Positions 12,476 to 64,000 of a DNA stretch of 64,000 nucleotides are shown piece after piece (position 1 is the first letter of the stretch; the number at the start of each line of letters is the position of its first letter). The notes under the pieces were generated by a model. The model did not search any database. It had not been told where the DNA came from and saw nothing but the letters and a program-made list of their open reading frames with translations. This stretch comes from Mucidula mucida (taxonomy: Eukaryota > Basidiomycota > Agaricomycetes > Agaricales > Physalacriaceae). The translations under genes and the position numbers were made by a program. The DNA lies in NCBI GenBank assembly GCA_015501055.1, contig JADNYV010000082.1, positions 1-64,000 of the forward strand. Reading direction: 5' to 3'.

Positions 12476-12480
12476 TTTTT
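12476..12480 (+). terminator. RNA polymerase III terminator of tRNA-His
   Basis: A run of five T begins 18 nt after the tRNA 3' end, as expected for Pol III termination. Confidence 0.65.
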
Positions 12481-25900: not shown

Positions 25901-26243
25901 CATAGTATCTCTAGTACTCATCGTACAATGTGCCTATGTTTGTAAATATAAGTATATCGTCCAGATAAACTATAACATGTCCTTCGTCAATTAGCTCCTT
26001 CAGAATGTGATTCATGAACGATTGAAATGTCGCCGGTGAGTTTGTAAGTCCGAAGAACATTGCCAATGGCTCGAACAGCCCCCGGTTTTCTAAACACTGC
26101 TTTTCACTCATCACTGTCTTTGATCCAAATGTTATTGTAACCCCATTAAACATCCAGCTTTGTAAACCATGTTGCTCCCTTCAACTTGTTGATAAGCTCC
26201 TGGATCAACGGCAAGGGATATTGGTTCTTGATTGTCATGTTGT
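22945..26243 (-). pseudogene. pol remnant of gypsy element C (RT, RNase H, integrase, chromodomain)
   Basis: Read on the minus strand from 26243. RT pieces have [16 protein letters not shown] and YLDD. RNase H and integrase lie in 25497-24493 (FTDHQNLQYFRK, HDAQLAGHPGRY, ISTFVDHLTKWLHI), and the integrase is interrupted by the solo LTR. The remainder lies in 23608-22945 with KVWLEGTNLSTDRPMKKLDD and a broken chromodomain. Compared with element A many changes are C-to-T or G-to-A type (Arg to Trp, Arg to Gln, Glu to Lys, Ala to Thr). Several stops and shifts; non-functional. Confidence 0.85.
23956..24492 (-). mobile_element. solo gypsy LTR nested in element C, TSD ATATT
   Basis: 537-bp LTR of the younger GACTAAGCC subfamily, flanked by ATATT on both sides (23951-23955 and 24493-24497). 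It interrupts the integrase frame of element C, so it inserted later. A solo LTR with intact duplication is the usual product of LTR-LTR recombination. Confidence 0.88.
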
Positions 26244-26764
26244 TGTTAGCGACTGACTATAGCCATGAGACTAAACCAGGTACCACAGCAAGAACTAAAA
26301 GAGAAAGTGTTCATGTTCGTAAGACTAGGCTAGGCCAGGTGTATAAACGAGATCGGAACTAAAGTACAATAATGCTACGCTACTGCTTATATACTGGTAA
26401 GGCTGTGTTTGGGACTCCTTGCATACATGTTTCCACTAGGGATGCTCCGCGCCCTTGACCTAATGTTGTATGCTACTAGTCCGTGAAACCATTAAATACA
26501 AGTGTTGACTGCATGTAAGTAATAATACTGAAACAACCATGTGTGCTACAAGTGTTGACAGTGTGTATACAAGTCCATGAGGTATCAGCATGTATGATGT
26601 CATCCATGTGTTTGGCGTGTGTCCGACATGAGTACGGCTTTGGTAATGAAAAGGAGTGTGATTGGTGACAAAACAGATAATGAAACAGTCCGTTGGTTGA
26701 TAAGACAAGCCCCCAATAAGATATGATGAGATGTGAAAATGTGAAAATATGGCAATTCATCACA
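26244..26764 (-). repeat. 5' LTR of gypsy element C
   Basis: 521 bp. It ends CATCACA where other copies end CATAACA, a point change at the terminus. Flanked outside by GGTTC. Confidence 0.88.
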
Positions 26765-40610: not shown

Positions 40611-41465
40611 TCAAAATCTGCTGACAATGAATCATTTGGTCATGGTGTCAATGCCATTCGTGTTTTTTTACTCGTACGCTCGTGTAATCACGCGTGAGTA
40701 CGGCCCACAGACCAACCCGGAGGGCTTTGCGCTCCCGTAAAGTACAAGATTGGAGTCGACGCCTCCTGAAAGTGAATGCAAAGATTTTCTCTGGATTCTC
40801 TCACCGTAGCCAGAGATCTGAGAACTATCGGAGAGAGTGCGTGTCAGCCCGATATGCGATCGTTCACAAATTGCGCTCAGGACCTGTACAGGAGGAGGAA
40901 GAATGTAGTTATTACAAGGTAGTTCTACGTATCCTGTACGTATCACAGCAAAACAAACAATCAAGACAGGAGGCAAGTCGTAAAACGACGAAAGAGATCA
41001 CAGAATGGAAAAGAGAACATAAACCACAACTACGCCCGCTACACACCTAATCACCAGAAGGACCCAGTTACACGCGGTGAAAGGGTTGTAACCCATGCCT
41101 ATTGATTGCAGACATGAAAATACAGAATACTGTAGTGTTTCAACCGCAAATTCACATAACGGGTCACGGGGGTCTTTGAAGTGAAGCTATATATACATCA
41201 TAACGGGTCACGGACCACTTTGGTCAGGCACGAGCCTCCAAATAAGGAAATTTCAGGTCCCGCTATAAGCGGAACTGTCCAAAAAAGGCAATTTAAGGGT
41301 CTGTGAAGCTGTTCGCTGTAACTTCAGACCATAATGGGTCACAGGCTGTGAAGTTACGGTCGAAACGCTACAGTAGGCTGGGGTGTGCCCTCTGTAGTAG
41401 ACACTTTGACTGCGGCGGGAGACCCTGCGCAATAAATGAGTGTCAGTACAAGAATGACGCTCATA
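40611..41465. other. intergenic with a thrice-repeated ATAAYGGGTCAC motif
   Basis: The 12-bp word ATAACGGGTCAC or ATAATGGGTCAC occurs near 41156, 41201 and 41331 in a 180-bp stretch. No gene is supported. Its role is unknown. Confidence 0.4.
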
Positions 41466-41693
41466 TTACAAAGAAGAGTAACCTCCAACGATACCCGCCA
41501 CACCAAAACCAAGGATAATGAGCACAATGAAGAAAAGTCCAAGAAGCAAAACAAGCGGCACTATGAGTATCCAGGGGCCTATGAAGACCAGTGTTGATAT
41601 AGCAAGCGTGACATATGGATTGGCAAGCACTATAGAAGAGCGATTAGCATTGAAACATGGGGCTTCTAAGGAATGGCCAACATAAGGCGTTAA
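41354..41693 (-). pseudogene. small hydrophobic protein gene broken by the copia insertion
   Basis: Minus-strand frame reading LTPYVGHSLEAPCF then two hydrophobic segments (WILIVPLVLLLGLFFIVLII, then GFGVAGIVGG), ending at a possible GT donor near 41470 with a following exon toward 41354. The glycine-rich LGFGVAGIVGG pattern resembles small two-helix proteins of the interferon-induced 6-16 type found in many basidiomycetes; that match is from memory and weak. The frame is cut at 41693 by the copia; on the far side (58318-58340) the same frame stays open (CFRLL) and is preceded by a good acceptor TTTTTGCAG on the minus strand. So the copia probably split a gene. Confidence 0.4.
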
Positions 41694-41992
41694 TGTCGAA
41701 GGAGCAGTCGTGGCTGTGCACAACGTGTCCCAATCCGGCATCTTCCGGAAGCTTCGCGTGCATACTCGTTCACGCGGATTTGGGATGTTTGCTCGTCTGC
41801 TCACTCAGCAAATGAGTCAAGTATTTATTCCAGTAGATAGTAGAACATTCTAGTACTCTACAATTTGTAGTATATATACGCGGCCTGCAAGGCCCTCAGA
41901 ATATCTAATTACTCTTACTTCTCCCTCATCCTCACATAGCTCGAGTCTCGCAGTTAGCCACTGCAACATCATATTCCCCATATTTTACAACA
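41694..41992 (+). repeat. 5' LTR of the copia element
   Basis: 299 bp. Matches the 3' LTR apart from a few substitutions and about 9 extra bases near 41805 (TCGTCTGCTCACTCAGC against TCGTCAGC). Contains a TATA-like TATATATACG near 41872. Confidence 0.92.
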
Positions 41993-42004
41993 GGTTATGG
42001 GCCC
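41993..42004 (+). promoter_or_regulatory. copia primer-binding site, probable half-tRNA-iMet type
   Basis: The 12 bases GGTTATGGGCCC directly after the LTR are complementary to GGGCCCATAACC, the form of an initiator tRNA-Met anticodon arm with CAT. Priming by the anticodon arm of a cleaved tRNA-iMet is established for Drosophila copia and yeast Ty5. The host tRNA-iMet is not in this window, so the match is inferred. Confidence 0.6.
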
Positions 42005-42067
42005 CGGCCTTAACTAAACTATACCAAGACTCACTATACAACTTACCTCACCAAATCACACATCATA

Positions 42068-43957
42068 ATGTCTGACTCTCTCCCCTCATCGCTCTTCCGT
42101 ATTGAGCTCCTCCAAGAGCACAACTGGGTTCCGTACAAGCGTCGCGTCACCGCAATATTACGAGAACGAGGTCTCTTGAAGTACGCCGAAGGCACAACCA
42201 AAATCCCTGTGCCGGCAGATGCTAATAACATCACTACGGAGGAAGCAACCAAGATCAGGAAATGGAAGAGGAAGACGGACAAGCGCAGACACAAATCAAG
42301 CTCACCTTGAGTGACTCGCAGATGATACATATCGCGGGAGCCAAGATAGCAGCCAAAATGTGGTCGCAGCTGAAGTTAGTAAAGGAAGCTAGAGGAAAAT
42401 TAGGGATACTATCGATCCGCCGCCGTCTCTACCGCACTGTTGCCAACAAATCCACAGATATCACCGAACACACCACATAAATGTGCCGCGTCCAGGAAGA
42501 ACTTGGTATCTTGGGAAGTGTCGTCACTGACAAAGATTTCCTAATGCTGCTCATCAGTTCATTGCCCAAGTCTTGGGACCAATTCACATCAGTGTACCTT
42601 GGTGCTACCGGAAATAACCCCACTGTTATCTCCCACAAGTTCATCTCCATCATCCAGGAAGAGAACCGACACCGAAAGGAGAAGTCTGGTGGGGGCGAAT
42701 CAGCCATGTACGGTCATAGCGGAAGCCAGGCAGGCAGGAACTGGAATGACAGAGACTCCACATCAGGAAGGGTATCCGACAATGTTGAGTGCTTTAACTG
42801 CCACAAACGAGGCCACACCAAGAACCAATGTTGGTCAAAGGGTGGCGGCCAGGAAGGAAAGGGCCCGAGCAGGAACAAAAGGAAGAAGGAAAGATCTAAC
42901 CAGGCCCAGTCAGGGAATGCTTATGATGACGTAGTTGAGACATCCTACCAGGTAGCGGAGACAAAACCCCAATTTGATAATCACTTCGCCCGTTATACCT
43001 GGCTCTCAGACTCAGGCACCATGTCATACATATCCAACAACCGTGTGACCTTCGTCAACTTTCGGCCACTCAAGGCAACCTCCATCAATGACATCAGAAA
43101 CATTGCAATCAAAGCTGTGGGCAGAGGAACAGTCCTGTTAGACTGCAAAGTCAATGGGCAAACTATCACTCACAAGCTCAAAGACACATTATTTGCCCCG
43201 AATGCCGCCAACAACCTCATCTCCATCAGCAGACTTGATGACGCCGGGATGAAAGCCTCATTGTCAGGAGGTCAGGTGTGATTCCTCCGCAGAGACGGGA
43301 AAGTCCTAGCGGAAGGACAGAAGACGCGCCAACTATACCTTATGAAGGCATGTGCACGCATTGTAGCGCCCAAGCAGTTAAATGTCGCCAAAACAAGCAA
43401 CAGAGACACATGGGATGCATGACATCTGAAGCTGGGACACCTAGGAAAGGCAGGGTTAGAAAGATAGAAAAAAGAGAAGGGCTCGTTGAAGGACTTACCA
43501 TATCGGACGACTTGCCGCCACTCAGCCAATGCAAAGCCTGTATTCAGGCAAAGATGACACTTCGCCCGTTCCCGCAGAAAGCGAAAAACCGACACAAACA
43601 GCCAGGAGAATTGACCCATGGCGATATTTGGGATCCGGCCCGCGTTGAGTCCCTGCAGAAGTCAAAATACTCTATCATGTTCACCAACGATGCGACATGC
43701 CGCTGCAGACCTGAATTTCTAAAACAGAAGTCAGAGTCATTTTGAAAGATGAAGGAATACATCACCTTTATTAAGCAGCAGGATGGAGTCAAACCCAAAG
43801 TTATTTGGGTGGACAATGCCAAGGAACTGACAGGCGGAGAGGTCAAAGAATGGTTGAAGAAAGAAGGAATTCACTTACAGACACCAGCACCATATGCACA
43901 CTCGTCAAACGGGGTAGCTGAACAATTTAATTGCACCCTAGTCAAACTTGCGCGCAC
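42068..43957 (+). pseudogene. copia gag-protease-integrase 5' part
   Basis: Starts MSDSLPSSLFRIELLQEHNW; a frameshift near 42265 and in-frame stops (near 42478, 43279 and 43743) break it. Visible: zinc knuckle CFNCHKRGHTKNQC, protease LSDSGTMSYISNN, GAG-pre-integrase LGHLGKAGLE region, and the integrase core with VIWVDNAKELTGGEV and PYAHSSNGVAEQF. It stops inside the integrase at LVKLAR-Thr, where gypsy element A begins; the next codons lie inverted at 51615. Confidence 0.88.
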
Positions 43958-44487
43958 TGTTAGCAACTGACTAAGCCACAAGACTCAACCAGGTACCATA
44001 GCAAGAACTTAAAAGAGAAAGTGTTCGCGTTCGTAAGACTAGGCTAGGCCAGGTGTATAAACGAGATCGGAACTAAAGTACAATGATACTACACTACTGC
44101 TTATATACTAGTAAGTCTGTGTTTGAGACTCCTTGTCCATACGCGTTTCCACTAGGGATGCTCCACGCCCTTGACCCAGTGTTGTATGCTACTAGTCCGT
44201 GAAACCATTAAATACGAGTGGTAACTGCATGTAAGTAATAATACTGAAACGACCATGTGTGCTACGAGTGTCGGCGGTGTGTATACAATAGGGAGTCCAT
44301 GAGGTATCGGCATGTATGATGTCATCCATGTGTTGGGTGTGTGTCCGACATGAGTACGGCTTCGGTAATGAAAAGGAGTATGATCGGTGACGAAACAGAT
44401 GATGAAACAGTTCGTTGGTTGATAAGACAAGGCCCCCGATAAGATATGATAAGATGTGAAAGTGTGAAAATATGGTCATTCATAACA
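43958..44487 (-). repeat. 3' LTR of gypsy element A
   Basis: 530 bp, TGTTAGCAACTG to CATAACA on the plus strand; followed by the polypurine tract complement TCACCCCCTCCTT at 44488-44500. Confidence 0.9.
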
Positions 44488-44498
44488 TCACCCCCTCC

Positions 44499-47400
44499 TT
44501 AAGGCGCAAGTTCCATTCTGCGCCAGATTTGCTCCATGAGGGCCGCAGAGGGTAGCGTGACATCAATAGGTTCAGTGTCAGGCGATGGCATGGGTCGGAA
44601 TAGATGTGATGGAAATTGCGACATGGGGACTTCGATGCGAGCAAGCGCAGGTGGCTTCGGCTTGTTCGGATATTGTTGGTGGAAATCGCTGATAGCTTCG
44701 TCGGCATTTTTGAGATTGCATGCCGGTTCCCATGTCTGCTCGTGTGTGCCATAACCCTTCCAGTGAACCTTGTATTGAAAACCCCCGCGGTACTTCCGGG
44801 AATTCACCACTTTCTCAACCTCCCATTCCGGTTCGGCTCCTTCCAGCACAGGTGGTGGACGCGTGTCTCGGGGTTGCGTCGGAAATTGGGGCTCGTGGTA
44901 AGACGTCAACAGGGCCTCATTGAACACGGGATGGATGCTTTTCCACGTGTGAGGAATCTGGAGCTTGTAAGAGCTCGTCCCGACTTTCTTGATCACTTTG
45001 AACGGCCCGAAGCGTTTTTCATCGAGCTTCTTCATTGGTCGGTCCGTGCTGAGATTCGTCCCTTCCAACCATACTTTGTCGCCCACCTTGTATTCTACTG
45101 CGTCTGTCCGCTTCCTGTCATAAAACCGTTCATATCTTCCTTTGCCATCTTCAATGCTGATCCCACTTCGTCCCATGTTTTCCTCATGCCGTCGGCAAAC
45201 TCCTGCGCAGTCTCGTTTCTCGATGCCGTTTGCGGAGCGGTGCCTTTGTAGGGATGTCTGCCCATATCTGCAACGAACGGAGTGACTTTGGTCGCCGAGT
45301 GAACTCGATCGTTGTAAACGAATTCAGCAGAGGGTAGCCATTCGTGCCAGTCGTTTTGATGGTAGTTGACAAATAACCGTAAGAAATGTTCTATCTCTTG
45401 GTTCAGCCGTTCCGTCTGCCCATTTGCCTGTGGATGATATGCCGTTGTAAAGTTTCCTTGTATGCCCAACAACCGGTACAACTCCTTCATGAAACGCGAG
45501 TGGTATTGTGGACCGCGATCATGTATCATCTGTTGTGGCATCCCATGTATGGGGAAAATGCGATCACGGTAAATGCGGGCCATGCCTTCCGACGTCAGAG
45601 TGGTGTGTGTGGGTATGATGTGTAATCGCTTTGTGAAATGGTCCACAAACGTGCTGATTGCATTGTATCCTCCCAATTCTGGCAGCTCTCCAATCATGTC
45701 CGTCCCTACTACCTCTTATGGCTCGCTTGGCACATCAATAGGGTGAAGAGGTGCAGCCGGCTTTGTGCAATGTGACTTTGTGGCCTGGCATTTCTGACAC
45801 CCTTCCATGTATTCATGGATGTCTCGGCTAATTCCAGGCCACCCATAGGTGCGTGTAATCAGCTCGAGGGTCTTGTATCGTCCGGGATGCCCTGCAAGCT
45901 GTGCGTCATGATGCATTCCGATAACTTTTCCCCGCAATTCCTTGTCCTTCGGTATGTAAATATGATCCTTCCATATAATAAGTCCATTTTCCTTCTCTTC
46001 CCATCCTTTTTCTTTGTTTTCTAATGCTTTTTGTACGTATCTGTCTTTGTTTCCTTTTCTTTGTTTGATTTTGTTAAGTAATTCGTCCTCCGGTGTATCT
46101 ACTGTATGTAAAGAGAATTGAATTTGTGAAATAAAAAACTCCGGCTTGAGCAAAACAATGTTTTCGTTATCTTTTTCCCCCTTCTCAAGGCCTGTCATCC
46201 TTGACAAGGCATCAGCTTTCCCCATTGTCTTGCCCGGCTTGTGAATCATCTGTATGTCATACTCCGCTAACTCCGTAACCCATCTCGCCTGCCTCCGATT
46301 TAACTTCTGTGGCTTCCGGAAGTACTGGAGGTTTTGATGATCGGTAAACACCTCCACCGTTTCCTTTGCTCCAAGGAGATATTGTCTCCAGTCGTCAATC
46401 GAGTCCATAATAGCCATCATTTCTTTGTCGTAGATCTCGTAGTTGCGTTCAACTTCATTTAACGCGCGAGATCGGAAAGCCACTGGTCTCCATTTGCCTT
46501 CGACGAACTGGGATAGAACAGCCCCGTTGGCATAGTTCGAAGAATCTGCCTCGACTCGAAACTTGCCGTTATCGCGTGGTACGATCAGAACGGGTTCTTC
46601 CGTCATCCTCCGTTTCAACTCCTCAAACGCCTCGTGCTGCTCCATGCCCCAAACCCACTCGCCCTTCCCGGTTAGCGATGTCAATGGCTTCGCTACTCCC
46701 GCAAATCCCCGGATGAAACGTCGGTAGAAGTTGCAGAAGCCCAGGAATGACTGTACTTCCTTCTTCTTCGTCGGCTCCTTCCATTCCTTCACTACGGCCA
46801 CTTTTGCCGGATCCATCTTCACTTCTCCTCCTCCAACAATAACTCCTAAGTAGTCTACAGTGTGTGCCTCAAAACTACATTTCTCGGGTTTTAAATACAA
46901 CTTATTTACTCGTAATATTTCTAATACCCTTCGTACAATCTGTCTATGCTCCTCGAGAGTGTTCGTAAAGATAAGTATATCGTCCAAGTAAACGATAACA
47001 TGTCCGTCGTCAATCAATTCCTTCAGAATGTAATTCATGAACGATTGGAACGTTGCCGGCGAGTTTGTAAGTCCGAAGAACATGACTGAGGGCTCGAACA
47101 GGCCTCGGTTTGTTCTAAACGCCGCTTTCCACTCATCACCTTCTTTGATCCGGATGTTATTGTAACCCCATCGGACATCCATCTTCGTGAAAACCTTTGC
47201 TCCCTTCAACTTGTCGATAAGCTCCTGAATCAACGGCAAGGGGTATCGGTTCTTGATTGTCATGTCGTTCAACTTCCGATAATCCTGCACTGGCCGAAGG
47301 CTTCCGTCCTTCTTCTTGACAAAGAAGAAGGGTGACCCATAGGTGAAATTGACGGCCGTATACGTCCCGTCCGTATGTTTTCTTCCAGGAATTCATCTAA

Positions 47401-48249
47401 TGCCTTCTGCTCGGATGGACTAAGGGGATAAACCTTGCAGTCAACCGGTTTGGAACCAGGCGTAAGTTCTATCGCGTGATCCCAGGGTCTTCGCTCCGGT
47501 AACTTGTCAAAGTCCGCCTTGCTGAATACATCGGAAAATTCCTCGATGTAAGGTGCAGCAGCGGATGAAGGCTGTTGTGATCTCAGCTTTTCACCGCTTT
47601 TGCGATAGTTGTCCCAGTCCATCCAGAACAAACGCTCTCCCTCCTCCAACTTCTCTTCTATGTCTTCTCCTTCATCTTCCGGTGAGTCGTACTCGGGTAG
47701 GTATCCGCAGCGGTCTGGGCATCGATCAAAAGTCAACGTGGATTCCGTCCAGTTGATCGTGGGGTTGTGATATCGTAACCAATCTAGCCCCAAAAAGATG
47801 CTTGTTTTGCCAAGATTGGTGACGGCCAACTCGATCTTTTCTGCGTGATCGCCGATCTTCATCCGGACCTCCACAAAACCTTCGATTGCTCCTCCCTCGT
47901 TTAGGGTTCCATCCGCATTGTAGACAGGGAGCTTGACCGGTAACTCCTTGATCGGGAGTCCGTTCTTCTCGACGAATTCTTTATTGACACAAGAACCCGT
48001 TGCTCCACTATCAAGAAGGGCACTCGTTTCCCATTCAGAGCCTGTGTGTACGCTCTCTATGGTTACTCGGAGTTTCATGTCCTGCCCCTTTGTTCCCCGG
48101 ATGTACTTCCTCGACTTTTTCAACTCCGTCACAACTTCCACCGCAGCTTCCTTTGTCAACGCTCTGATCGCCATCACCTTCTCCTCCGTCGCTTCTCTCT
48201 CTCTCCGCTCCGGCATCCATGCTCTCAAAATTCCCACTGCTCTCGGCAC
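44499..48249 (-). pseudogene. gypsy element A pol: protease, RT, RNase H, integrase, chromodomain
   Basis: Minus-strand reading. 48249-47269: protease with LLDSGATGSCVNKEF and FLGLDWLRYHNP. 47290-45716: RT with KMDVRWGYNNIRI and [11 protein letters not shown], then RNase H (VEADSSNYANGAVL, FTDHQNLQYFRK) and the integrase zinc finger (HDAQLAGHPGRYKTL, EGCQKCQ). A stop after PSEP (near 45718) splits the integrase; 45697-45095 has the catalytic parts GTDMIGELPE, STFVDHFTKRLHI and YHPQANGQTERLNQEIE. 45176-44499: C-terminal domain KVWLEGTNLS and a chromodomain YKVHWKGYGTHEQTWEPACNL. Chromodomains of this group can direct integration to marked chromatin (established for chromoviruses). The full RT makes A the best reference copy in the window. 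Confidence 0.88.
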
Positions 48250-48424
48250 ATCATCCTCTCTTAGCCGTTGTGCGATCCACTCGGGCGTATTTGGCTCAAA
48301 TCTTTCTTTCGCAGGTTTTGTTGGTGAAGTCGTCGATGATTTTTAGATGTTTCAGTACCCGTACTGTAAATAAATTCTGCATCTGACAACCCTTCCCTTG
48401 ATGACTGCTCCGGCAGGACTGCGT

Positions 48425-49350
48425 CTACTGCGGGAGCTTCGCAAAACCCAACTCTTCGGCCAACTTCTTCTTCTCCTCGTTGTTCATTTCGGTCCATAGA
48501 CCCCGAATCGTCTGGGGTCGACCCTTCTTAGGACAAAACCTGCTGACATGGCCGTGTTCGCCACAGCTGAAGCAAAGTCCTCTTCGACGTGCGTTGTCGA
48601 TGTCCATCAGTCTGCCGGCTCCTCCATAGGTAACGCCGGTGGCATCTCGTCGTGTGATTGGCGTCGGGGGTGGATTCGTAGGGTTGACTCTTGATGTAGC
48701 CGCCTGCGGAGCTTGGGGCCGAACCTGCATGCCGGACCTCTTGCTCGCCGCCCGCCTTCTCCATAGCTGATCAATCTGAATGATCTGTGCCTTCCAATCC
48801 TTGTACTTCTTGGCAACCCATCTCGGCTGCCATAGATCTGGTCGATAATCTTCTCGTTGACATTGGTCTCGAGAAGTCGCACGACAAATGCGTCATCCTT
48901 CGAGTATTCCGCCTGAGTAAGCAGGACTCAACTTCTGAAAGAAATCTTGAGCGGTGTCTTGCCCCTGGCGCAACCGTTCGATCTGATCTTGCGCATCTCG
49001 CGCGAGGTTGGAGTCCACAAATCGCTCCTTCAAATTCTCCTTGAACTCAGTCCAAGAGACTGTCCATTCCTCTTCTTCCTCGTCGAAGTTCTGGTCCGAG
49101 TAGTTCTGGACCCATGCATCAACATGATCTCCTCGGATGTAGGAGAGAACAACATCAATCCTTTCGGAGTCGATGTGAGGTTGTTCTTCTTGTCACGGAT
49201 GTATGTGAACATCGATCGCCACCAGCTCTTGTACTTGGACTTGTCCCCGTCATAGTCATAAGGCTTGTTGACAAGGGATCGGCCTTTGGTTTCGTCATTG
49301 GCGTGATGAGCAGGTGTGTGATGAGCGGCTTTGGGTGCTTCGTTGGACAT
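48425..49350 (-). pseudogene. gypsy element A gag
   Basis: Starts MSNEAPKAAHHTPAHHANDE at 49350; WWRSMFTYIRDKKNN region, then a one-base loss after NNLTS compared with element B shifts the frame. Later gag pieces lie in other frames. A zinc knuckle LCFSCGEHGHVSRFCPKKG is near 48510-48580. Gag coats element RNA in virus-like particles. At least two frame breaks. Confidence 0.85.
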
Positions 49351-49932
49351 GATGGATCGGGGTGATGGGATCAGAGAGTGAAAGGGTGAAGTGGGGATAT
49401 GGGTGATGCGGATTTGGATGAAACGGGTGAGGGAATAGAGGTTTGGATGAATAGGGAGGGATCGCCTAGATCTGAAATAGAATCCAGGACTTGGTAGGGT
49501 GGGGAATGATGATGTGTATCGTAAGGTAAGTAAAGTAGGTAGGTATCGTAACTGTCTACTCTATTTTACCGGCTACTGACTACGTATCTACGGAGCCCAA
49601 GAGCTCGTCACAAGTTCGCAATTGCCCAGCCGACGTCCCTCTGGTGTGAGGTAAGCCGAAGTTTTCCTGGGAACGGGGGTTGACCCGTAAACAGCGCCCA
49701 CTGAAGTGCAACTGCCAAAAGTTCGTTCTCGTGAGAGCGGCTACTTCCAGCACCCGAGGCAGTTATCTCTAACTGTTAGCCGGCGCTACTGGGACCAATA
49801 CACACGTATGCGGACGTGCGCTGGGATTAGGAATCCGTCGATCTGTAAACAGGAAAGGGGATGGGGAATGTGCGATGATCAAACAGCGAAGTGCTGATCG
49901 ACGATCAGGGATGTGTGGTAGGTGGTAGAAAG

Positions 49933-49944
49933 TAGTTCCGATCT
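49933..49944 (-). promoter_or_regulatory. self-complementary primer-binding site, element A
   Basis: On the minus strand, two bases after the LTR, AGATCGGAACTA. It is the reverse complement of TAGTTCCGATCT inside the LTR. See the copy at 52148-52159. Confidence 0.75.
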
Positions 49945-49946
49945 TC

Positions 49947-50475
49947 TGTTAGCGACTGACTAAGCCACGAGACTCAACCAGGTACCGCAGCAAGAACTTA
50001 AAAGAGAAAGTGTTCGCGTTCGTAAGACTAGGCTAGGCCAGGTGTATAAACGAGATCGGAACTAAAGTACAATGATACTACACTACTGCTTATATACTAG
50101 TAAGTCTGTGTTTGAGACTCCTTGTCCATACGCGTTTCCACTAGGGATGCTCCATGCCCTTAACCCAGTGTTGTATGCTACTAGTCCGTGAAACCATTAA
50201 ATACGAGTGGTAACTGCATGTAAGTAATAATACTGAAACGACCATGTGTGCTACGAGTGTCGGCGGTGTGTATACAATAGGGAGTCCATGAGGTATCGGC
50301 ATGTATGATGTCATCCATGTGTTGGGTGTGTGTCCGACATGAGTACGGCTTCGGTAATGAAAAGGAGTATGATCGGTGACGAAACAGATGATGAAACAGT
50401 TCGTTGGTTGATAAGACAAGGCCCCGATAAGATATGATAAGATGTGAAAGTGTGAAAATATGGTCATTCATAACA
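49947..50475 (-). repeat. 5' LTR of gypsy element A
   Basis: 529 bp; nearly identical to the LTRs of element B. Its outer edge touches the inverted copia segment with GTCAT. Confidence 0.9.
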
Positions 50476-51615
50476 GTCATACCCTGGCGGCTGCTTCATG
50501 AAGATTTCTTCTTCGAGTTCTCCATCTAGGTAAGCGCCTTTGATATCCATCTGACCTATTTTAAGGTCCTCAATGGCTGCGATTCTCAGGGCTGCTTGTA
50601 CGGATTCAAGGCAAACGACTGGCGCAAATGTCTTGGTGTAGTCTACACCAGGGATTTGTGAAAATCCCTGTGCAACAAGTCTGGCTTTGTACTGTGACAC
50701 CTGTCCATGTTCATTGTACTTCTTGATGAATGTCCATCTGCACCCCATAATGTCTCGTCCATCTGGTAAGTCGTTTAATTCCCATGTTCCCATCTGATGA
50801 AGCATGCTGATTTCCTCATCCATAGCCTCCTTCCACTTGGGCCATTTGGGCGAGGCTTGTGCCTCTGCTAGGCTTTGCGGGAAGTCATCGCGGTCCATGT
50901 GCTTGCCATTGCCGGCAAGATAGCTCTGGATGACGGCAAGATTTGCGGACTCGGGTGGACTGTGCTCGGATGGCGACGGACGAGGGATTCATGATGTTTG
51001 GGATGAACAAGCATTTGGGTTGTTGAGTTTGGCATATTTGTGTTCTGTCGCGGTGCAACTAGACCGCCGGATTGGTCCTGATGGTGGTTTCGGGATTTGT
51101 GATGGCTTGGGGATTGTCGGTGGCGTAATTGGTGGGTTGACTGCTGTTGGTGCCTCTTTCTTCTGCTGATCCATATCCTGCTCAGACTTTTCTGGCAATT
51201 GCGGGTCGCTAGCACCTCCTGTCTCCCCCTTGAGCTGCATATTGTCAATGTTTTTGACGTCAACTGCTGGTGCCGGCTGCACAAACTCATAGTTCCGTGA
51301 TTTCCGGATGGATCGCAGGCCCGTGTTGTAGTATTTTACGACTACGGGGTCGTCTGAAAACCCAACAAAGGTATGTTTTGTTGCTTTGCTCAAGTTTCCG
51401 CCAAGTTTTGACAAGTTTTTCCCTTCTCTTTTCACCCAGACTGGACACCCAAACTCCCGGAGATGCAAGATGTCGGGCTTCTTGCCTGTCCAAGCTTCTT
51501 CCGGTGTCTTTCCTTCGAGCGCAAGTGTTGGTGCGTGATTGCGGATATATGCCGCATACTTGACCGCACATTCCCACAGGAACGATGGAAGGCCTCGCGC
51601 AATAAGCATTGTGCG
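50476..51615 (-). pseudogene. inverted middle of the copia pol (integrase end to reverse transcriptase)
   Basis: On the minus strand from 51615: MLIARGLPSFLWECAVKYAA (integrase end), then PDILHLREFGCPVWV, a Pro-rich linker, and RT start WKEAMDEEISMLHQMGTWEL with QYKARLVAQGFSQIPGVDY and GQMDIKGAYLDGELEEEIF, ending MKQPPGYD. Both ends fit exactly to the plus-strand copia pieces at 43957 and 56882 when the segment is flipped. A frame change occurs near 50890. The segment is flanked by inward GTCAT and GTGCG, each the partner of a duplication on the other gypsy. Confidence 0.9.
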
Positions 51616-52145
51616 TGTTATGAATGACCATATTTTCACACTTTCACATCTTATCATATCTTATCGGGGGCCTTGTCTTATCAACCAACGAACTGTTTCA
51701 TCATCTGTTTCGTCACCGATCATACTCCTTTTCATTACCGAAGCCGTACTCATGTCGGACACACACCCAACACATGGATGACATCATACATGCCGATACC
51801 TCATGGACTCCCTATTGTATACACACCGCCGACACTCGTAGCACACATGGTCGTTTCAGTATTATTACTTACATGCAGTTACCACTCGTATTTAATGGTT
51901 TCACGGACTAGTAGCATACAACACTGGGTTAAGGGCATGGAGCATCCCTAGTGGAAACGCGTATGGACAAGGAGTCTCAAACACAGACTTACTAGTATAT
52001 AAGCAGTAGTGTAGTATCATTGTACTTTAGTTCCGATCTCGTTTATACACCTGGCCTAGCCTAGTCTTACGAACGCGAACACTTTCTCTTTTAAGTTCTT
52101 GCTGTGGTACCTGGTTGAGTCTCGTGGCTTAGTCAGTCGCTAACA
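51616..52145 (+). repeat. 5' LTR of gypsy element B
   Basis: 530 bp, TGTTATGAATGACC to GTCGCTAACA. Contains a TATA box TATATAAG at 51996-52003 and the predicted transcript start TAGTTCCGATCT at 52028-52039. Confidence 0.92.
51996..52039 (+). promoter_or_regulatory. gypsy LTR promoter: TATA box and predicted transcript 5' end
   Basis: TATATAAG starts 32 nt before TAGTTCCGATCT, whose reverse complement is the primer-binding site. The spacing is what a Pol II TATA promoter needs if the transcript starts at that word. The same arrangement is in the other LTR copies. The start is inferred, not measured. Confidence 0.65.
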
Positions 52146-52147
52146 GA

Positions 52148-52159
52148 AGATCGGAACTA
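52148..52159 (+). promoter_or_regulatory. self-complementary primer-binding site, element B
   Basis: AGATCGGAACTA, two bases after the LTR, is perfectly complementary over 12 nt to LTR bases 52028-52039. No tRNA-like primer site (TGG start) is present. In Tf1 and its relatives the transcript's own 5' end folds onto such a site and is cleaved to give the primer (established for Tf1). Confidence 0.75.
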
Positions 52160-52740
52160 CTTTCTACCACCTACCACACATCCCTGATCGTCGATCAGCA
52201 CTTCGCTGTTTGATCATCGCACATTCCCCATCCCCTTTCCTGTTTACAGATCGACGGATTCCTAATCCCAGCGCACGTCCGCATACGTGTGTATTGGTCC
52301 CAGTAGCGCCGGCTAACAGTTAGAGATAACTGCCTCGGGTGCTGGAAGTAGCCGCTCTCACGAGAACGAACTTTTGGCAGTTGCACTTCAGTGGGCGCTG
52401 TTTACGGGTCAACCCCCGTTCCCAGGAAAACTTCGGCTTACCTCACACCAGAGGGACGTCGGCTGGGCATTGCGAACTTGTGACGAGCTCTTGGGCTCCG
52501 TAGATACGTAGTCAGTAGCCGGTAAAATAGAGTAGACAGTTACGATACCTACCTACTTTACTTACCTTACGATACACATCATCATTCCCCACCCTACCAA
52601 GTCCTGGATTCTATTTCAGATCTAGGCGATCCCTCCCTATTCATCCAAACCTCTATTCCCTCACCCGTTTCATCCAAATCCGCATCACCCATATCCCCAC
52701 TTCACCCTTTCACTCTCTGATCCCATCACCCCGATCCATC

Positions 52741-53668
52741 ATGTCCAACGAAGCACCCAAAGCCGCTCATCACACACCCGCTCATCACGCCAATGACGAA
52801 ACCAAAGGCCGATCCCTTGTCAACAAGCCTTATGACTATGACGGGGACAAGTCCAAGTACAAGAGCTGGTGGCGATCGATGTTCACATACATCCGTGACA
52901 AGAAGAACAACCTCACATCGGACTCCGAAAGGATTGATGTTGTTCTCTCCTACATCCGAGGAGATCATGTTGATGCATGGGTCCAGAACTACTCGGACCA
53001 GAACTTCGACGAGGAGAAGAGGAATGGACAGTCTCTTGGACTGAGTTCAAGGAGAATTTGAAGGAGCGATTTGTGGACTCCAACCTCGCGCGAGATGCGC
53101 AAGATCAGATCGAACGGTTGCGCCAGGGGCAAGACACCGCTCAAGATTTCTTTCAGAAGTTCGAGGTCCTGCTTACTCAGGCGGAATACTCGAAGGATGA
53201 CGCATTTGTCGTGCGACTTCTCGAGACCAATGTCAACGAGAAGATCATCGACCAGATCTATGGCAGCCGAGATGGGTTGCCAAAGAAGTACAAGGATTGG
53301 AAGGCACAGATCATTCAGATCGATCAGCTATGGAGAAGGCGGGCGGCGAGCAAGAGGTCCGGCATGCAGGCCCGGCCCCAAGCTCCGCAGGCGGCTACAT
53401 CGAGAGCCAATCCTACGAACCCACCCCCGACGCCATCACACGACGAGATGCCACCGGCGTTACCTATGGAGGAGCCGGCAGGCCGATGGACATCGACAAC
53501 GCACGTCGAAGAGGACTTTGCTTCAGCTGTGGCGAACACGGCCACGTCAGCAGGTTCTGTCCGAAGAAGGGTCGACCCCAGACGATTCGGGGTTTATGGA
53601 CCGAAATGAATGACGAGGAGAAGAAGAAGCTGGCCGAAGAGTTGGGTTTTGCGAAGCTCCCGCAGTAG
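52741..53668 (+). pseudogene. gypsy element B gag
   Basis: Starts MSNEAPKAAHHTPAHHANDE at 52741; open through RIDVVLSYIRGDHVDAWVQN, where element A has lost a base. Then B itself has lost one base near 53010 (DEEKRN against DEEEEEW in A). Continues as FKENLKERFVDSNLARDAQD and TQAEYSKDDAFVVRLLETN, with the zinc knuckle CFSCGEHGHVSRFCPKKG near 53520-53575. A and B are broken at different points. Confidence 0.85.
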
Positions 53669-56360
53669 ACGCAGTCCTGCCGGAGCAGTCATCAAGGAAA
53701 AGTCGTCAGATGCAGAATCTATTTATAGTACTGGTACTGATACACCTAAAATATCATCGACGACTTCACCAACAAAACCTGCGAAAGAAAGATTTGAGCC
53801 AAACACGCCCGAGTGGATTGCACAACGGCTAAGAGAAGATGAAGTGCCGAGAGCAGTGGGAATTTTGAGAGCATGGATGCCGGAGCGGAGAGAAGAGAAG
53901 CGACAGAGGAAAAGTGATGGCGATCAGAGCGTTGACGAAGGAAGCTGCGGTGGAAGTCGTGACGGAGTTAAAAAGTCGAGGAAGTACATCCGGGGAACAA
54001 AGGGGCAAGACATGAAACTCCGAGTAACCATAGAGAGCGTGCACACAGGCTCTGAATGGGAAACAAGTGCCCTTCTTGACAGCGGAGCAACGGGTTCTTG
54101 CGTCAATAAAGAATTCGTCGAGAAGAACGGACTCCCAATCAAGGAGTTACCGGTCAAGCTCCCTGTCTACAATGCGGATGGAACCCTAAACGAGGGAGGA
54201 GCAATTGAAGGGTTTGTGGAGTTGAAACGGAGGATGACGGAAGAACCCGTTCTGATCGTACCACGCGACAACGGCAAGTTTCGAGTCGAGGCAGATTCCT
54301 CGAACTATGCCAACGGGGCTGTTCTATCCCAGTTCGTCGAAGGCAAATGGAGACCAGTGGCTTTCCGATCTCGCGCGCTGAACGAAGTGGAGCGCAATTA
54401 TGAGATCTACGACAAAGAGATGATGGCTATTATGGACTCGATCGACGACTGGAGGCAATATCTCCTAGGCGCTAAGGAGACAGTGGAGGTTTTCACCGAT
54501 CACCAAAACCTTCAGTACTTCAGGAAACCGCAGAAGTTGAACCGGAGGCAGGCGCGATGGGTTACGGAGTTGGCAGAGTATGACATACAGATGATTCACA
54601 AGCCGGGCAAGACGATGGGGAAAGCTGATGCCTTGTCAAGGATGACAGGCCTTGAGAAGGGGGAAAAAGATAACGAAAACGTTGTTTTGCTAACACCGGA
54701 GTTTTTTATATCACAAATTCAATTTTCTTTACATACAGTAGCTACACCGGAGGACGAATTACTTAACAAAATCAAACAAAGAAAAGGAAACAAGGACAGA
54801 TACGTACAAAAAGCATTAGAAAACAAAGAAAAAGGATGGGAAGAGAAGGAAAATGGACTTATTATATGGAAAGATCGTATTTACATACCGAAGGACAAGG
54901 AATTGCGGGGAAAAGTTATTGGAATGCATCATGATGCACAGCTTGCAGGGCATCCGGGACGGTACAAGACTCTCGAGTTGATCACACGCACCTATTGGTG
55001 GCCAGGAATTAGCCGAGACGTCCGCGAATACGTGGAAGGGTGTCAAAAATGCCAAGTTACAAAGTCACATCGCACAAAACCGGCTGCACCCCTCCATCCT
55101 ATAGACGTACCAAGCGAACCATGGGAGAAAGTTGGGACGGACATGATTGGCGAGTTGCCGGAGTCGGGAGGATACAATGCGATCAGCACGTTCGTGGACC
55201 ATTTCACAAAGCGGCTACGCATTATACCAACACACACCACCCTGACGTCAGAAGGCATGGCTCGTATTTACCGCGATCGAATCTTCCCCATACATGGATT
55301 GCCGCGACAAATGATACACGATTGAGGTCCGCAATACCACTCGCGTTTCATGAAGGAGTTATACCGGCTGTTGGGCATTGAAGGGAATTTCACGACGGCG
55401 TACCATCCACAGGCAAATGGGCAAACAGAACGGTTGAACCAAGAGATAGAACATTTCTTACGGTTATTCGTCAATTACCATCAGAACGACTGGCATGAAT
55501 GGTTACCCTCTGCCGAATTCGTTTACAACGATCGGGTACACTCAGCAACCAAGGTTACTCCGTTCTTCGCAGACATGGGCAGACACCCCTACAAAGGCAC
55601 CGCTCCGAAAACGGCATCGAGAAACGAGACTGCGCAGGAGTTTGCCAACGGCATGAGGAAAACATGGGACGAAGTAGGGTCGGCATTGAAGATGGCAAAA
55701 GAAGACATGAAACGGTTTTATGACAGGAAGCGGACAGACGCAGTAGAGTACAAGGAGGGCGACAAAGTATGGCTGGAAGGGACGAATCTCAGCACAGACC
55801 GACCAATGAAGAAGCTCGATGACAAACGCTTCGGGCCGTTCAAAGTGATCAAGAAAGTCGGGACGAGCTCTTACAAGCTCCAGATTCCTCACACGTGGAA
55901 AAGCATCCATCCCGTGTTCAATGAGGCCCTGCTGACGCCTTACCACGAGCCGCAATTTCCGACGCAACCCCGAGACACGCGTCCACCACCTGTGCTGGAA
56001 GGAGCCGAACCGGAATGGGAGGTTGAGAAAGTGGTTAATTCCCGGAAGTACCGCGGGGGTTTTCAATACAAGGTTCACTGGAAGGGTTATGGCACACACA
56101 AACAGACATGGGAACCGGCATGCAATCTCAAGAATGCCGACGAAGCTATTCGCGATTTCCACCAGCAGTACCCAAACAAGCCAAAGCCACCTGCGCTTGC
56201 TCGCATTGAAGTTCCCATGTCGCAATTTCCATCACATCTATTCCGACCCATGCCACCGCCTGACACCGAACCTCTTGAGTCACGCTACCCTCTGCGGCCC
56301 TCATGGAGCAAATCTGGCGCAGAATGGAACTTGCGCCTTAAGGAGGGGGTGATGTTATGA
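53610..56360 (+). pseudogene. gypsy element B pol with in-frame protease to RNase H deletion
   Basis: 53610-55325 is one open frame: linker, protease start LLDSGATGSCVNKEF up to EGGAIEGFVE, then directly [20 protein letters not shown] of the RT-RNase H junction; the rest of protease and all RT palm motifs are absent. RNase H and integrase follow (FTDHQNLQYFRK, HDAQLAGHPGRYKTL). A TGA stop at 55323 replaces an Arg codon before GPQYHSRF. 55350-56360 continues with YHPQANGQTERLNQ, KVWLEGTNLS and a chromodomain YKVHWKGYGTHKQTWEP. The join has GGAG on both parental sides, so microhomology-mediated loss is likely. Confidence 0.87.
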
Positions 56361-56881
56361 ATGACCATATTTTCACACTTTCACATCTTATCATATCTTA
56401 TCGGGGCCTTGTCTTATCAACCAACGGACTGTTTCATCATCTGTTTCGTCACCGATCATACTCCTGTTCATTACTGAAGCCGTACTCATGTCGGACACAC
56501 GCCTAACACATGGATGACATCATACATGCCGATACCTCATGGATTCCCCATTGTATACACACCACCGACACTCGTAGCACACATGGTCGTTTCAGTATTA
56601 TTACTTACATGCAGCTACCACTCGTATTTAATGGTTTCACGGACTAGTAGCATACAACACTGGGTCAAGGGCGTGGAGTTATCCCTAGCGGAAACACGTA
56701 TGGACAAGGAGTCCCAAACACAGGCTTACTAGTATATAAGCAGTAGTGTAGTATCATTGTACTTTAGTTCCGATCTCGTTTATACACCTGGCCTAGCCTA
56801 GTCTTACGAACGTGAACGCTTTCTTCCTTAGTTCTTGCTGTGGTACCTGGTTGAGTCTCGTGGCTTAGTCAGTCGCTAACA
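56353..56881 (+). repeat. 3' LTR of gypsy element B
   Basis: 529 bp, preceded by the polypurine tract AAGGAGGGGGTGA (56340-56352). Ends GTCGCTAACA and touches ATGAC of the copia. Confidence 0.9.
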
Positions 56882-58020
56882 ATGACGACCAGTCCGGATG
56901 TGTGAAAACTCTATATGGGTTGAAGCAGTCAGGCCAAGAATGGAACAAAGAATTTGATAGGAAACTCACCTCCATCGGATTCTCGAAGCTCGACACAGAC
57001 TATTGCGTATACAAACGCATCCAGAACGGCCAAAAAGTGTTGATCACAGTATGGGTCAATGACTTGCTCATCTTTGCGGAAACGAATGACGACCTAGAGG
57101 CAACAAAAAGTCAGCTGAAGGAACTCTTCAAGATAACAGACATGGGAGAGCCAAAAAAGATAATCGGAATAGAGATAGAGAGGAACCGCAGCAATGAATC
57201 CATCTCTCTATCCCAGGAACAATACATTGATGGGATACTCACCCGCTTTGGTCTCCACAACGTGTCGCCTGTCTCCACTCCACTGGACCCAAACATTATT
57301 CTACGAAAGCGCCAAGAAGACGGCGAAGTCAAATCCACTATCCGAAGCGGCTACCAGTCCGCGATAGGCTCGCTTATGTACGCGGCAATTGGAACACGTC
57401 CTGACATTGCATACACCGTCCAGACGCTAAGCCAGTTTTCATCGAATCCAGGTCCCGAACACTGGACAGCTGTGAAGTGAGTGTTCAGGTACCTATCTGG
57501 AACAAGAAACTATAAACTCACCTTCCGAGCTAATAAAGAACAAGACGTCATTTGTGCTGGATACAGCGACGCGGACTACATGTCGAACCCAGACAATTGG
57601 AAATCCATCTCTGGCTACACATTCCTCATAGGAGGAGCAGCATTTGTGTGGAGCTCGAAAAAACAATCCACCACCGCGCTATCATCCACAGAGGCAGAGT
57701 ACACAGCTTTAGCCCATTCCACATGCCAGGCCATCTGGAACAGAAACCTCTTAGAAGGCCTAGGCTATCCACAAGAAGAACCCACCTTGGTCTTTGAGGA
57801 CAACTAATCCACCATCGCCATTGTGCACGACCCGCAATATCATGCCCGGTCAAAACACTTTGACGTCCAGAACCATTTTTTCCGTGAAAAAGTGGAGCAC
57901 GAGATTATCAAGTTGGCATATTGTCCTACAGATGAGATGGTGGCCAACATATTTACGAAGGCACTGCCACGGCCCAAGCATGAGAAGTTTGTCCGAGAAC
58001 TTGGACTGATGCCGGCTTGA
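56882..58020 (+). pseudogene. copia reverse transcriptase end and RNase H
   Basis: Continues the inverted segment: DQSGCVKTLYGLKQSGQEWN, then WVNDLLIF where copia RTs normally have YVDD or WVDD (an Asp changed to Asn). RNase H: AGYSDADYMSNPDNW, WSSKKQSTTALSSTEAEY, HARSKHFDVQNHFFREKV, FTKALPRPKHEKF. Stops at 57478 (TGA) and 57806 (TAA) break the frame. The natural stop is at 58018-58020. Confidence 0.88.
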
Positions 58021-58027
58021 GGGGGAG

Positions 58028-58317
58028 TGTCGAAGGAGCAGTTGTGGCTGTGCACAATGCGTCCCAATCTGGCATCTTCCGGAACCTTTGCGTGCATACT
58101 CGTTCACGCGGATTTGGGATGTTCGCTCGTCAGCAAATGAGTCAAGTATTTATTCTAGTAGATAGTAGAACATTCTAGTCCTCTACAATTTGTAGTATAT
58201 ATACGCGGCCTGCAAGGCCCTCAGAATATCTAATTACTCTTACTTCTCCCTCATCCTCACATAGCTTGAGTCTCGCAGTTAGCCACTGCAACATCATATT
58301 CCCCATATCTTACAACA
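58028..58317 (+). repeat. 3' LTR of the copia element
   Basis: 290 bp, directly after GAGGGGGAG. Followed by the duplication GTTAA. Confidence 0.92.
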
Positions 58318-58322
58318 GTTAA

Positions 58323-58874
58323 CAGGCGGAAGCACTGCAAAAAGGTGTTGAGTTGGAAAGTGCATGCCTATAAGGCTTTGACATACCATCTGTCATGAAT
58401 TGCCTCTATTCTGTTGCCCCCACCTCGGTCCACCTTGTTATTGTGTCAACACCACACTCTTCCATCATCACATATCATACGCTCCGGGTCCGGTCTGCAC
58501 TGCCTTGGCCCAGGCCTGATCCAGGTATAGCCCATCAGCATAGCCTGTCACCTGTCCATCACCCCATGACACAATCCACACTGCCTCTTGTTTAACTTTG
58601 AGCCATTCTATTGTTTACACAGTCACGGACTCTTTATATATAAATACACGGCCTTTCTAGGTAGATTCCTCAGTTCGTCAACTTTGTCTCTACACTGTTT
58701 GGTAGCCCCCTGCACTGTATTGAGCCTGACCTGCTCCTACCTCACCTTATTATCATCTCTGCCTATTGTCTCCATTGTTCTCCCGTCTTCATGCGACTTG
58801 GGTGGTTGTTTGGTTTACACCGGACTCCGTTCTTAACACCATCAGCAATAAACCAGTCCTCTACAAAAACAGCT
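58323..58874. other. intergenic, no complete gene
   Basis: The first 20-60 bp may hold the 5' exon end of the gene split by the copia (minus strand). The rest has only short ORFs. Confidence 0.4.
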
Positions 58875-58879
58875 ATCAG

Positions 58880-59384
58880 TGTTATGAATTGCCATATTTT
58901 CACATTTTCACATCTCATCATATCTTATCTGGGCTTGTCTTATCCACCAACAAACTGTTTTATCAGTTGTTCCGTCTCTGATCATACTCCTTTTTATTAT
59001 CAAAGCCTTACTCATGTTAGACACTACATGCCGACACCTCATGGACTTCCTATTGTACACACACTGTCAACACTTGTAGCATACATGGTCCTTTCAGTAT
59101 TATTACTTGCATGTAGTTACCACCCGTATTTAATGGTTTCATGGACTAGTAGCATACAACACTGGGTCAAGGGCATGAAGCATCCCTAGTGGAAACACGT
59201 ATGGACAAGGAGTTCCAAACACAGACTTACTAGTATTCAAGCAGTAGCGTAGCATCATTGTACTTTAGTTCCGATCTCGTTTATACACCTGGCCTAGCCT
59301 AGTTCTACAAACGCGAACACTTTCTTTCCCTAAGTCTCTTTGTGGTACCTGGTTTAGTCTTGTGACTATAGTCAGTCGCTAACA
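58880..59384 (+). mobile_element. solo gypsy LTR, TSD ATCAG
   Basis: 505 bp, TGTTATGAATTGCC to GTCGCTAACA, flanked by ATCAG (58875-58879 and 59385-59389). It shares the GACTATAGTC variant with element C, so it belongs to that older subfamily, and has several short deletions. Confidence 0.9.
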
Positions 59385-59430
59385 ATCAGTGTTGTCATTC
59401 CCGAAGTGTCATAAAAACTCACTGCAGACA

Positions 59431-60028
59431 ATGGCCTGATTCTGAATCCATTCCCAACAGATGTTGGCCGCATTCACAATCCATTCCCAACAGACACTTT
59501 GCAGGGTGTAAATAAAGGCATTTGCTAAATTGAGGGCTAAACTCATAGCTAAAATACAGATATGTCATAGACAAAACTTGAAATTTAGCACCTGATTTGG
59601 ACTGTGAGAAACTCAGAGAGAAAGCAGGTCTTTGTCACCAGATAAAGGCAAAATTTGGCAGCTGGAAAAATAAATGCCCTCTGAGCGCCTACTCATTTTA
59701 CCCTGAAAGGAACCTAAAATGGCCTAAAATGGCCTAAAATGGCCTAAAATGAGGCAAAATGAGCGGGCACTCAGAGGGCATTTATCTTTTCAGCTGCCAA
59801 ATTTTGCCTTTATCTGGTGACAAGGACTTTCTTTCTCTCTGAGTTTCTCACAGTCCAAATCAGGTGCTAAATTTCAAGTTTTGTCTATGACATATCTGTA
59901 TTTTAGCTATGATTTTAGCCCTCAATTTAGCAAATGCCTTTATTTACACCCTGCAAAGTGAGACGTTGGCCGCATTCACAATCCATTCCCAGAAGGCATT
60001 CGCCACATTCGGCATCCATTCCCAACAG
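59431..60028. repeat. 33-bp minisatellite split by a fold-back element
   Basis: Units ending CCATTCCCAACAG or CCATTCCCAGAAG: 59431-59460 (degenerate), 59461-59493, 59963-59995 and 59996-60028. The core TTGGCCGCATTCACAATCC is shared by the two central units. The period of 33 bp is a multiple of three, so a coding origin is possible, but no gene is supported. Confidence 0.7.
59495..59960. mobile_element. fold-back MITE, 466 bp, 204-bp inverted arms, TSD AGA
   Basis: Ends CACTTTGCAGGGTG and CACCCTGCAAAGTG. The arms (about 59495-59698 and 59757-59960) are nearly perfect reverse complements over their whole length. The loop of about 58 bp has four 10-bp units of the type GGCCTAAAAT (59711-59750). 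Flanked by AGA on both sides, a 3-bp duplication as made by CACTA or PIF/Harbinger transposases. No coding capacity. Confidence 0.85.
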
Positions 60029-60276
60029 TCTTTGATTATTTCCCAGACTGGACCCGCCGGCTTCAATGAAAGATGCATGATGTCTGGGGTTTGGAATGTC
60101 GTGGCGCCTTGGAGGTGGGCAATGTACATTGTGGTTCGGTGCAAGAGTAGCGAGTGTCCATGCGGATGAGGCGTGGACAGGTTAAGTAGCGCCTGCGGAG
60201 CCGATTTACAGAAATGATGTCGGCAGAGATGCTGGGTCCTGAGCGGAGTCTTGGAAGTTCATTGACATATTGTCTA

Positions 60277-60938
60277 TAGGGATGTGCGCCGTACCGTTAC
60301 GGGTACAGCCGTAAGTTGCCCACCCGTATTCGGTTTACGGCCGTAAGATATGGTCCGTAACGGCCGGAACACGGCCGTAGTGTGGCGTTCAGTTATAAAT
60401 ATTGAGAGTTATTGACCTGTCAGTATGTAGTTAGTTTTTCTCAATGTGTGGATAAGTTGACAAGTCACCTTTGGGCCCGAAAGGAGCCTACTTCAGCCAT
60501 TACCACTGAAAGACAGTCATTCAGGCAGCTTCAATGCTCAAACACTGCACCAGAAAAGTTGATTCATGTCCTTTGATGTTTTCCGGACAGTAAATGGGTG
60601 GTCTGGGAGGCCAAATGCGCCGAGAACGTCGTTGTTCATCAACAAGATGGTCCACGTGGTAGGTGTCCCGATTGGGACAAGCCATCGCTGGCAAGGTCTT
60701 CAAGCGACATCCACAACACATTTCAGCCAGCATCAGATTGTGTTTGTCCTTGGTACTCTACATGAGGGGTCTGCTACTGGATGAATAGCGATTTGAAGAC
60801 GATCTGACCCCACCAGGTGAGTGACCGTATCACGGCCGTATGACCGATCCGTTGACTCCAAGATTGCTCACGGTACGGGTACCGTAACCCGTATGCCGTA
60901 CCGTATGCACCGTACATACGGTACGGCGCACATCCCTA
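60277..60938. mobile_element. non-autonomous hAT-type element, 662 bp, TSD ATTGTCTA
   Basis: Terminal inverted repeats TAGGGATGTGCGCCGTACCG, perfect over at least 20 bp at both ends. The 8-bp duplication ATTGTCTA is perfect (60269-60276 and 60939-60946). The TAGGG start and 8-bp duplication are hAT hallmarks. Subterminal zones are dense in CCGTA/TACGG and ACGGCCGTA motifs in both orientations, typical of transposase-binding subterminal repeats. No transposase frame inside. Confidence 0.92.
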
Positions 60939-60946
60939 ATTGTCTA

Positions 60947-63853: not shown

Positions 63854-63961
63854 GTATAAAGAGGTTGGCGTTGAAGAGGTATAGACCACAAACCCACCAG
63901 CCTTTCTCATTGACGACAACTATCCAACTATACTCACATTTGACGCGCTTTACTCGCAATC
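63854..63961 (+). promoter_or_regulatory. promoter and 5' leader of the gene at 63962
   Basis: TATAAAGAGG lies about 105 bp before the ATG, followed by a C/T/A-rich leader (ACTATCCAACTATACTCAC) ending CAATC before ATG. This is the usual layout of a well-expressed basidiomycete gene. Confidence 0.6.
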
Positions 63962-64000
63962 ATGTCGTCTTCCCAAACTTTCTACGCCGATGCCGTTCTC
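63962..64000 (+). CDS. 5' end of a gene cut by the window edge
   Basis: ATG in a good context with 13 codons, MSSSQTFYADAVL. Some fungal HAD-family phosphatases start in this way (ADAVLFDMDGT), but too little is present to assign a function. The upstream TATA box and leader support the start. Confidence 0.5.
   Translation, partial: MSSSQTFYADAVL

Follow-up and report, generated by a model that had tools for sequence, protein, structure and literature searches.

How two members of one retrotransposon family can each come to lie between target-site duplications (TSDs) that do not match is the question raised by a stretch of 64,000 nucleotides of the agaric Mucidula mucida (GenBank assembly GCA_015501055.1, contig JADNYV010000082.1, positions 1 to 64,000; hereafter the window). 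The window sits in contig C849 of a genome of 59.9 Mb and 1047 contigs, and it holds a copia element in which two opposed Ty3/gypsy elements, A and B, are nested (Table 1). We consider it likely that A and B recombined inside copia, homologous recombination between their inner arms having inverted the copia spacer between them together with A-to-B gene conversion of about 1.5 kb.

The TSD pairs mismatch within A and within B, and the left flanks of the two elements are reverse complements of each other (CGCAC and GTGCG), as are the right flanks (GTCAT and ATGAC). The original prediction had named these four flanks, and all of them were found in their places and as reverse-complement pairs. Flipping the segment from 50476 to 51615 restores matching TSDs for both elements, and by our own arithmetic the chance of two prescribed 5-mers both matching is about 1 in a million (4^-10). 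The two nested elements divide copia into three pieces (P1, P2 and P3 from left to right), which had been predicted to read in frame across both sites; translated separately, P1 ends in ...KLAR, the reversed P2 runs from RTMLIARG to PPGYD, and P3 starts with DDQSG, in agreement with that claim.

Other copies of copia give an independent view of the original order. The genome was searched with the three pieces, 11 of 11 candidates being scored in the P1 and P2 searches, and all three pieces are present at ten other places, with the middle piece 94-95% identical in five and 83-84% in five. The pieces of all ten copies are collinear on one strand with P2 reversed relative to the window, and a single RVT_2 domain is split in the window between minus-strand P2 and plus-strand P3; therefore, the 1140-bp segment is inverted in the window. 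As read in the 1500-base flanks of the matches, each 5-bp target is single in these copies, with one base changed relative to the window: the CGCAC site reads CGCGC in 10/10, and the ATGAC site reads ATAAC in five and ACGAC in five. Two homologous, opposed copies thus flank an inverted segment and their TSDs are exchanged, a chimeric copy being seen for B only. The crossed TSDs and the ten collinear copies speak for the order of events that had been predicted: a copia insertion, then two opposed gypsy insertions, then inversion of the segment enclosed by these.

The un-inverted arrangement was looked for in a second haplotype. Contig C633 (6459-13111) matches window positions 57353-64000 at 99.5%, its far end matches C849 69700-70554, and from this similarity it is probably a second haplotype, or else a recent duplication. 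The start of C633 lies within a further gypsy element, which interrupts the same copia at 57353 just ahead of CCAGT; the corresponding site in the window is empty. Because that point lies to the right of both A and B, C633 is uninformative on them. No second near-identical copy of P1 and P2 was found among the 11 of 11 scored candidates, and the left flank of copia gave no second full copy among the 40 of 259 candidates scored.

The place of the exchange was sought by aligning A and B with a complete copy on contig C104 (22200-28719), which is the closest relative of the outer part of B and has LTRs (long terminal repeats) identical at 529/529 sites and TSD GTTGG on both sides. There is a sharp step in identity between A and B: 225/3714 sites differ up to A 48930 (equivalent to B 53161), and 2/1544 differ from there to the LTR tips. 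A two-rate model gains 71 log-likelihood units, breakpoints at A 48724-48962 fitting within 2 units, and 0/10000 shuffles were as low on the right side when tested at the fitted point without refitting. Outside the near-identical tract, B differs from C104 at 8/529 sites of the outer LTR, 7/2131 of the outer internal region and 14/1057 of the inner part (29/3717 in total); within the tract, it differs at 16/912 internal sites and 17/528 LTR sites. When the genome was searched with the tract, the B arm was the top match to the A arm, with 2563 bits (self 2601), followed by 2465 bits for the next match among the 40 of 1305 candidates that were scored. The comparison of A and B with other copies, which the original prediction had proposed for locating the exchange point, thus placed it in the near-identical inner 1.5 kb or so, with A-to-B gene conversion. 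Starting at the outer LTR and continuing as far as about 53160, B tracks C104; its A-like portion is confined to the inner 1.5 kb or so, transferred one way from A. As the outer 3.7 kb of B contains no switch to A, the two elements did not swap halves, contrary to what had been predicted. The best match to the outer part of A is only 96%, so that A lacks a close relative over its full length. A copy on contig C217 was set aside as a candidate for this role, since it forms a tandem array whose closeness to A is largely limited to the inner half.

The direction of transfer comes from a comparison of the four LTRs of A and B with those of C104 and with 27 other LTRs, which are the best matches to the right LTR of A (A-right). 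A-left, A-right and B-left fall together, and B-right is separate. An extra T is common to the first three and is missing in C104, in B-right and in 27/27 other LTRs, and ten columns are common to B-right and C104, of which 0/27 other LTRs have any. Because these variants group B-left with both LTRs of A, the tract is the sequence of A, and the inner LTR of B was overwritten. A-right and B-left further share one state that is found in neither outer LTR and in 0/27 others, and a second that is found in 1/27; most simply, these states would have arisen in the inner LTR of A between the insertion of A and the conversion. There are 5/530 differing sites between A-left and B-left and 6/529 between A-left and A-right, and since the arms differ at only 2/1544, the conversion looks younger than the insertion of A, although these numbers are too small for a date. 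Collapsed reads giving a mixed consensus could also produce identical arms, but this reading is disfavoured, because the tract is of A type at all ten columns shared by B-right and C104.

These observations can be arranged in a simple route. The copia element would have inserted at GTTAA, and two members of one Ty3/gypsy family would have inserted into it in opposite orientation about 1.13 kb apart, A at CGCAC and B at ATGAC, together forming an inverted repeat. A break in the inner arm of B, repaired from A as template and resolved as a crossover, would be the simplest form of homologous recombination between the inner arms. The crossover would have inverted the copia spacer, with crossed target duplications as the result, and about 1.5 kb of B, comprising the inner LTR and the adjacent 5' region (presumably the leader and the start of gag), would have been overwritten by A sequence. 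The crossed TSDs, the inverted segment, the sharp step in identity and the A-type tract are observations; we infer from them that a single event gave both conversion and crossover and that the cell, not only the assembly, has this arrangement. The original prediction that the record is complete at base level was overstated, since the sequence does not tell whether conversion or inversion came first, where exactly the crossover fell or how old B is, and an assembly flip keeps some probability.

Such a flip would mean that A, B and the homogenised arms are real and that the 1.14-kb spacer is in its ancestral orientation in the cell but was placed backwards in the assembly. Several points weigh against our interpretation here. 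Homogenised 1.5-kb arms around a 1.14-kb spacer are an arrangement able to mislead an assembler, and between the arms, about 1.54 kb long, there are 2 substitutions and a few single-base indels. Four contigs (C633, C820, C67 and C721) end inside this gypsy family. Among 13 full-length gypsy candidates surveyed by eye for TSDs, 11 could be scored; the TSDs mismatch in 4/11 (C106, C127, C778 and C171) and match in seven (C110, C337, C283, C135, C104, C264 and C152), the two others being unscorable because internal sequence follows the right LTR (C107) or the copy runs off its contig (C308). This high rate of mismatch means frequent ectopic recombination, chimeric joins, or both. In addition, the 27 LTRs used for comparison include pairs from one element and are neither a random nor an independent sample, and misassembly is also possible, though less likely than in the window, at a second locus on contig C405. 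Nevertheless, we regard a flip as unlikely. The complete 6.5-kb element on C104, its LTRs 100% identical and its TSDs matching, was assembled; this suggests reads longer than the 4.2 kb needed here, although it is no proof of them, and C405 has the same signature although its arms are only 97-98% identical overall, yet 99.2% over one 1.35-kb part (11/1346 sites differ, leaving out a 150-base end window with 24 differences).

At C405, one gypsy is nested in another at position 2906-2910 of the host gypsy (numbering as in A). The LTRs at 3985-4513 and 7607-8135 are identical at 529/529 sites and lie in opposite orientation, the outside flanks TGTGC and GCACA are reverse complements, and the reversed arm between the LTRs runs from the LTR back to host-element position 2906. 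More internal sequence follows the right LTR of the host element, so its own TSD is not checkable. Judged from its sequence, this second case supports a real process. Pieces of this gypsy family also lie in opposed pairs at C114:53538-61266, C51:3325-4179 and C471:216178-216908.

The remaining alternatives accept a real rearrangement or deny that the middle piece was ever inverted. It is possible, though we think it the weaker choice, that two events took place, conversion homogenising the inner arms at an earlier time and one or more later crossovers inverting the spacer. This overlaps with the single-event route, and the tract extends to the very end of the homology on both arms, so that a crossover inside it would be traceless; it requires one event more, and nothing else was found against it. 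That the two elements traded halves reciprocally, through a crossover far inside the internal region, is very improbable: crossed TSDs alone are compatible with any crossover point, but B tracks C104 over its outer part and the A-left LTR groups with both inner LTRs. Chance capture of a copia fragment carried by the gypsy insertions, with a coincidental TSD match and no inversion at all, has practically no probability left and is refuted by the two exact 5-mer matches, the collinearity of 10/10 copia copies and the splitting of one domain across the junction. Inner-arm recombination with conversion thus stays our preferred explanation. One could speculate further that conversion keeps the 1.5-kb arms near-identical and that the 1.14-kb segment is a live flip-flop which inverts repeatedly, its orientations coexisting among nuclei or strains, but we give this extension little credence.

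A and B are both Ty3/gypsy LTR retrotransposons with a chromodomain, having direct LTRs and the pol order of this group, and their own 5-bp TSDs are crossed rather than matching. Pfam scans of three pieces of A found protease, RVT_1, RNase H, integrase zinc-binding, SH3 and chromo domains in that order, and two scanned pieces of B gave the same set minus RVT_1, with protease below the cut-off. The integrase core was not among the Pfam matches of A and B, its expected place in A (piece 45095-45715) lying outside the scan. The stretch of pol missing from B, in the reverse transcriptase (RT) region, is present in both A and C104.

The host copia has a copia-type RT, RVT_2 being represented by profile positions 3-105 on the minus strand of P2 and 118-242 on the plus strand of P3. 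SH3_retrovirus, which also lies in P2, precedes RVT_2; the integrase core, expected before RT in a copia element, gave no match, and no Pfam family was matched in P1 at 43242-43742. Another part of P1 (42481-43278) matched Pol_BBD, and Retrotran_gag_2 only below the curated cut-off. Near 56900, immediately to the right of the second junction, 12 bp that the five closer copies carry are missing from the window copia.

Table 1. Positions of the copia element, the nested gypsy elements and their target-site duplications (window coordinates unless a contig is named)
Feature	Position	Strand	Remarks
copia element	41694-58317	+	two opposed Ty3/gypsy elements (A, B) nested inside
copia TSD GTTAA, left copy	41689-41693		read from sequence
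copia TSD GTTAA, right copy	58318-58322		read from sequence
copia left LTR	41694-41992	+	BLAST match to 58028-58318, 93.3%; match extends to 41993, end read from sequence
copia right LTR	58028-58317	+	LTR match to left LTR, ~93% identical
copia piece P1 (gag onward), original orientation	41993-43957	+	Pfam domains; collinearity of 43000-43957 with 10 other copies
inverted copia piece P2, from the SH3-like domain into RT (first part)	50476-51615	-	opposite orientation in 10/10 other copia copies
copia piece P3 (second part of RT onward), original orientation	56882-58027	+	RVT_2
gypsy element A, 6518 bp	43958-50475	-	LTRs 43958-44487 and 49947-50475; domains on minus strand
gypsy element B, 5266 bp	51616-56881	+	LTRs 51616-52145 and 56353-56881
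TSD CGCAC, left flank of A	43953-43957		sequence
GTCAT, right flank of A, reverse complement of ATGAC	50476-50480		sequence
GTGCG, left flank of B, reverse complement of CGCAC	51611-51615		sequence
ATGAC, right flank of B	56882-56886		sequence
inner arm of A, near-identical to B inner arm; tract that contains the exchange point	48930-50475	-	likelihood puts the start at 48724-48962
B inner arm, of A type through conversion	51616-53161	+	site comparison and LTR variants
B deletion site	54195-54221	+	~1.25 kb of pol (RT region, ~A 46644-47868) missing; short shared CTCC (4 bases) at junction
second crossed-TSD inversion	C405:3985-8135 (region 1075-14112)		gypsy nested in gypsy

Several other repeats were noted in the window. 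A solo LTR of the same gypsy family lies at 58880-59384, about 560 bp right of copia, with a perfect 5-bp TSD (ATCAG), and an internally shortened gypsy copy at 22420-26764 has GGTTC on both sides and a nested solo LTR at 23956-24492 (TSD ATATT). Just left of copia, a 250-bp repeat (41126-41375) recurs with 98-100% identity at about 40 scored places (of 259 candidates). The 466-bp near-palindrome at 59495-59960 is 89% self-complementary and perhaps represents a hairpin-type non-autonomous element.

The window case is not novel in kind; it is a well-preserved instance of a process already known. Opposed orientation, exchanged TSDs and chimeric copies form the published signature of the Galileo inversions of Drosophila (PMC2775673). 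Inversion 2z3 resembles the window there in its two opposed copies, exchanged TSDs, single target at each empty site and chimeric exchange region. However, Galileo is a DNA transposon whose TSDs are 7 bp long, and in that account the inversion is chromosomal and two copies are chimeric, whereas the window holds LTR retrotransposons, a 1.14-kb inversion inside copia and a one-way conversion, only B being seen as chimeric. For yeast, a figure legend (PMC9879454) describes how a crossover between inverted Ty elements of one chromosome arm yields an inversion; Ty1 elements were cut deliberately there, while the window is a natural case read from its TSDs. That paper reports no event between same-arm inverted repeats in four isolates of one strain examined in detail. 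For crapaud of Podospora, 7/150 full copies are reported to have disparate LTRs, explained by gene conversion or ectopic recombination (PMC10787394). Like these copies, B has LTRs of two sublineages, but for B a likely donor is identified, namely its opposed neighbour A. No such case appears in the available part of the Anopheles Ty3/gypsy study (PMC3026039). Wordings that describe crossed TSDs turned up in Drosophila papers, and none of the titles and abstract starts listed describes the arrangement in a fungus, which is weak evidence of absence because most subscription journals lay outside the search.

Where insertions are nested and their empty sites readable, crossover and conversion between opposed retrotransposons can be followed at single-base resolution, as can the direction of transfer. 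The presence of two cases in one genome suggests that a scan for crossed TSDs could measure the rate of inversion by opposed retrotransposons. Conversion can also spoil dates based on LTR divergence, as in B, whose two LTRs are about 4.5% divergent, yet whose outer internal region differs from C104 at only 7/2131 sites.

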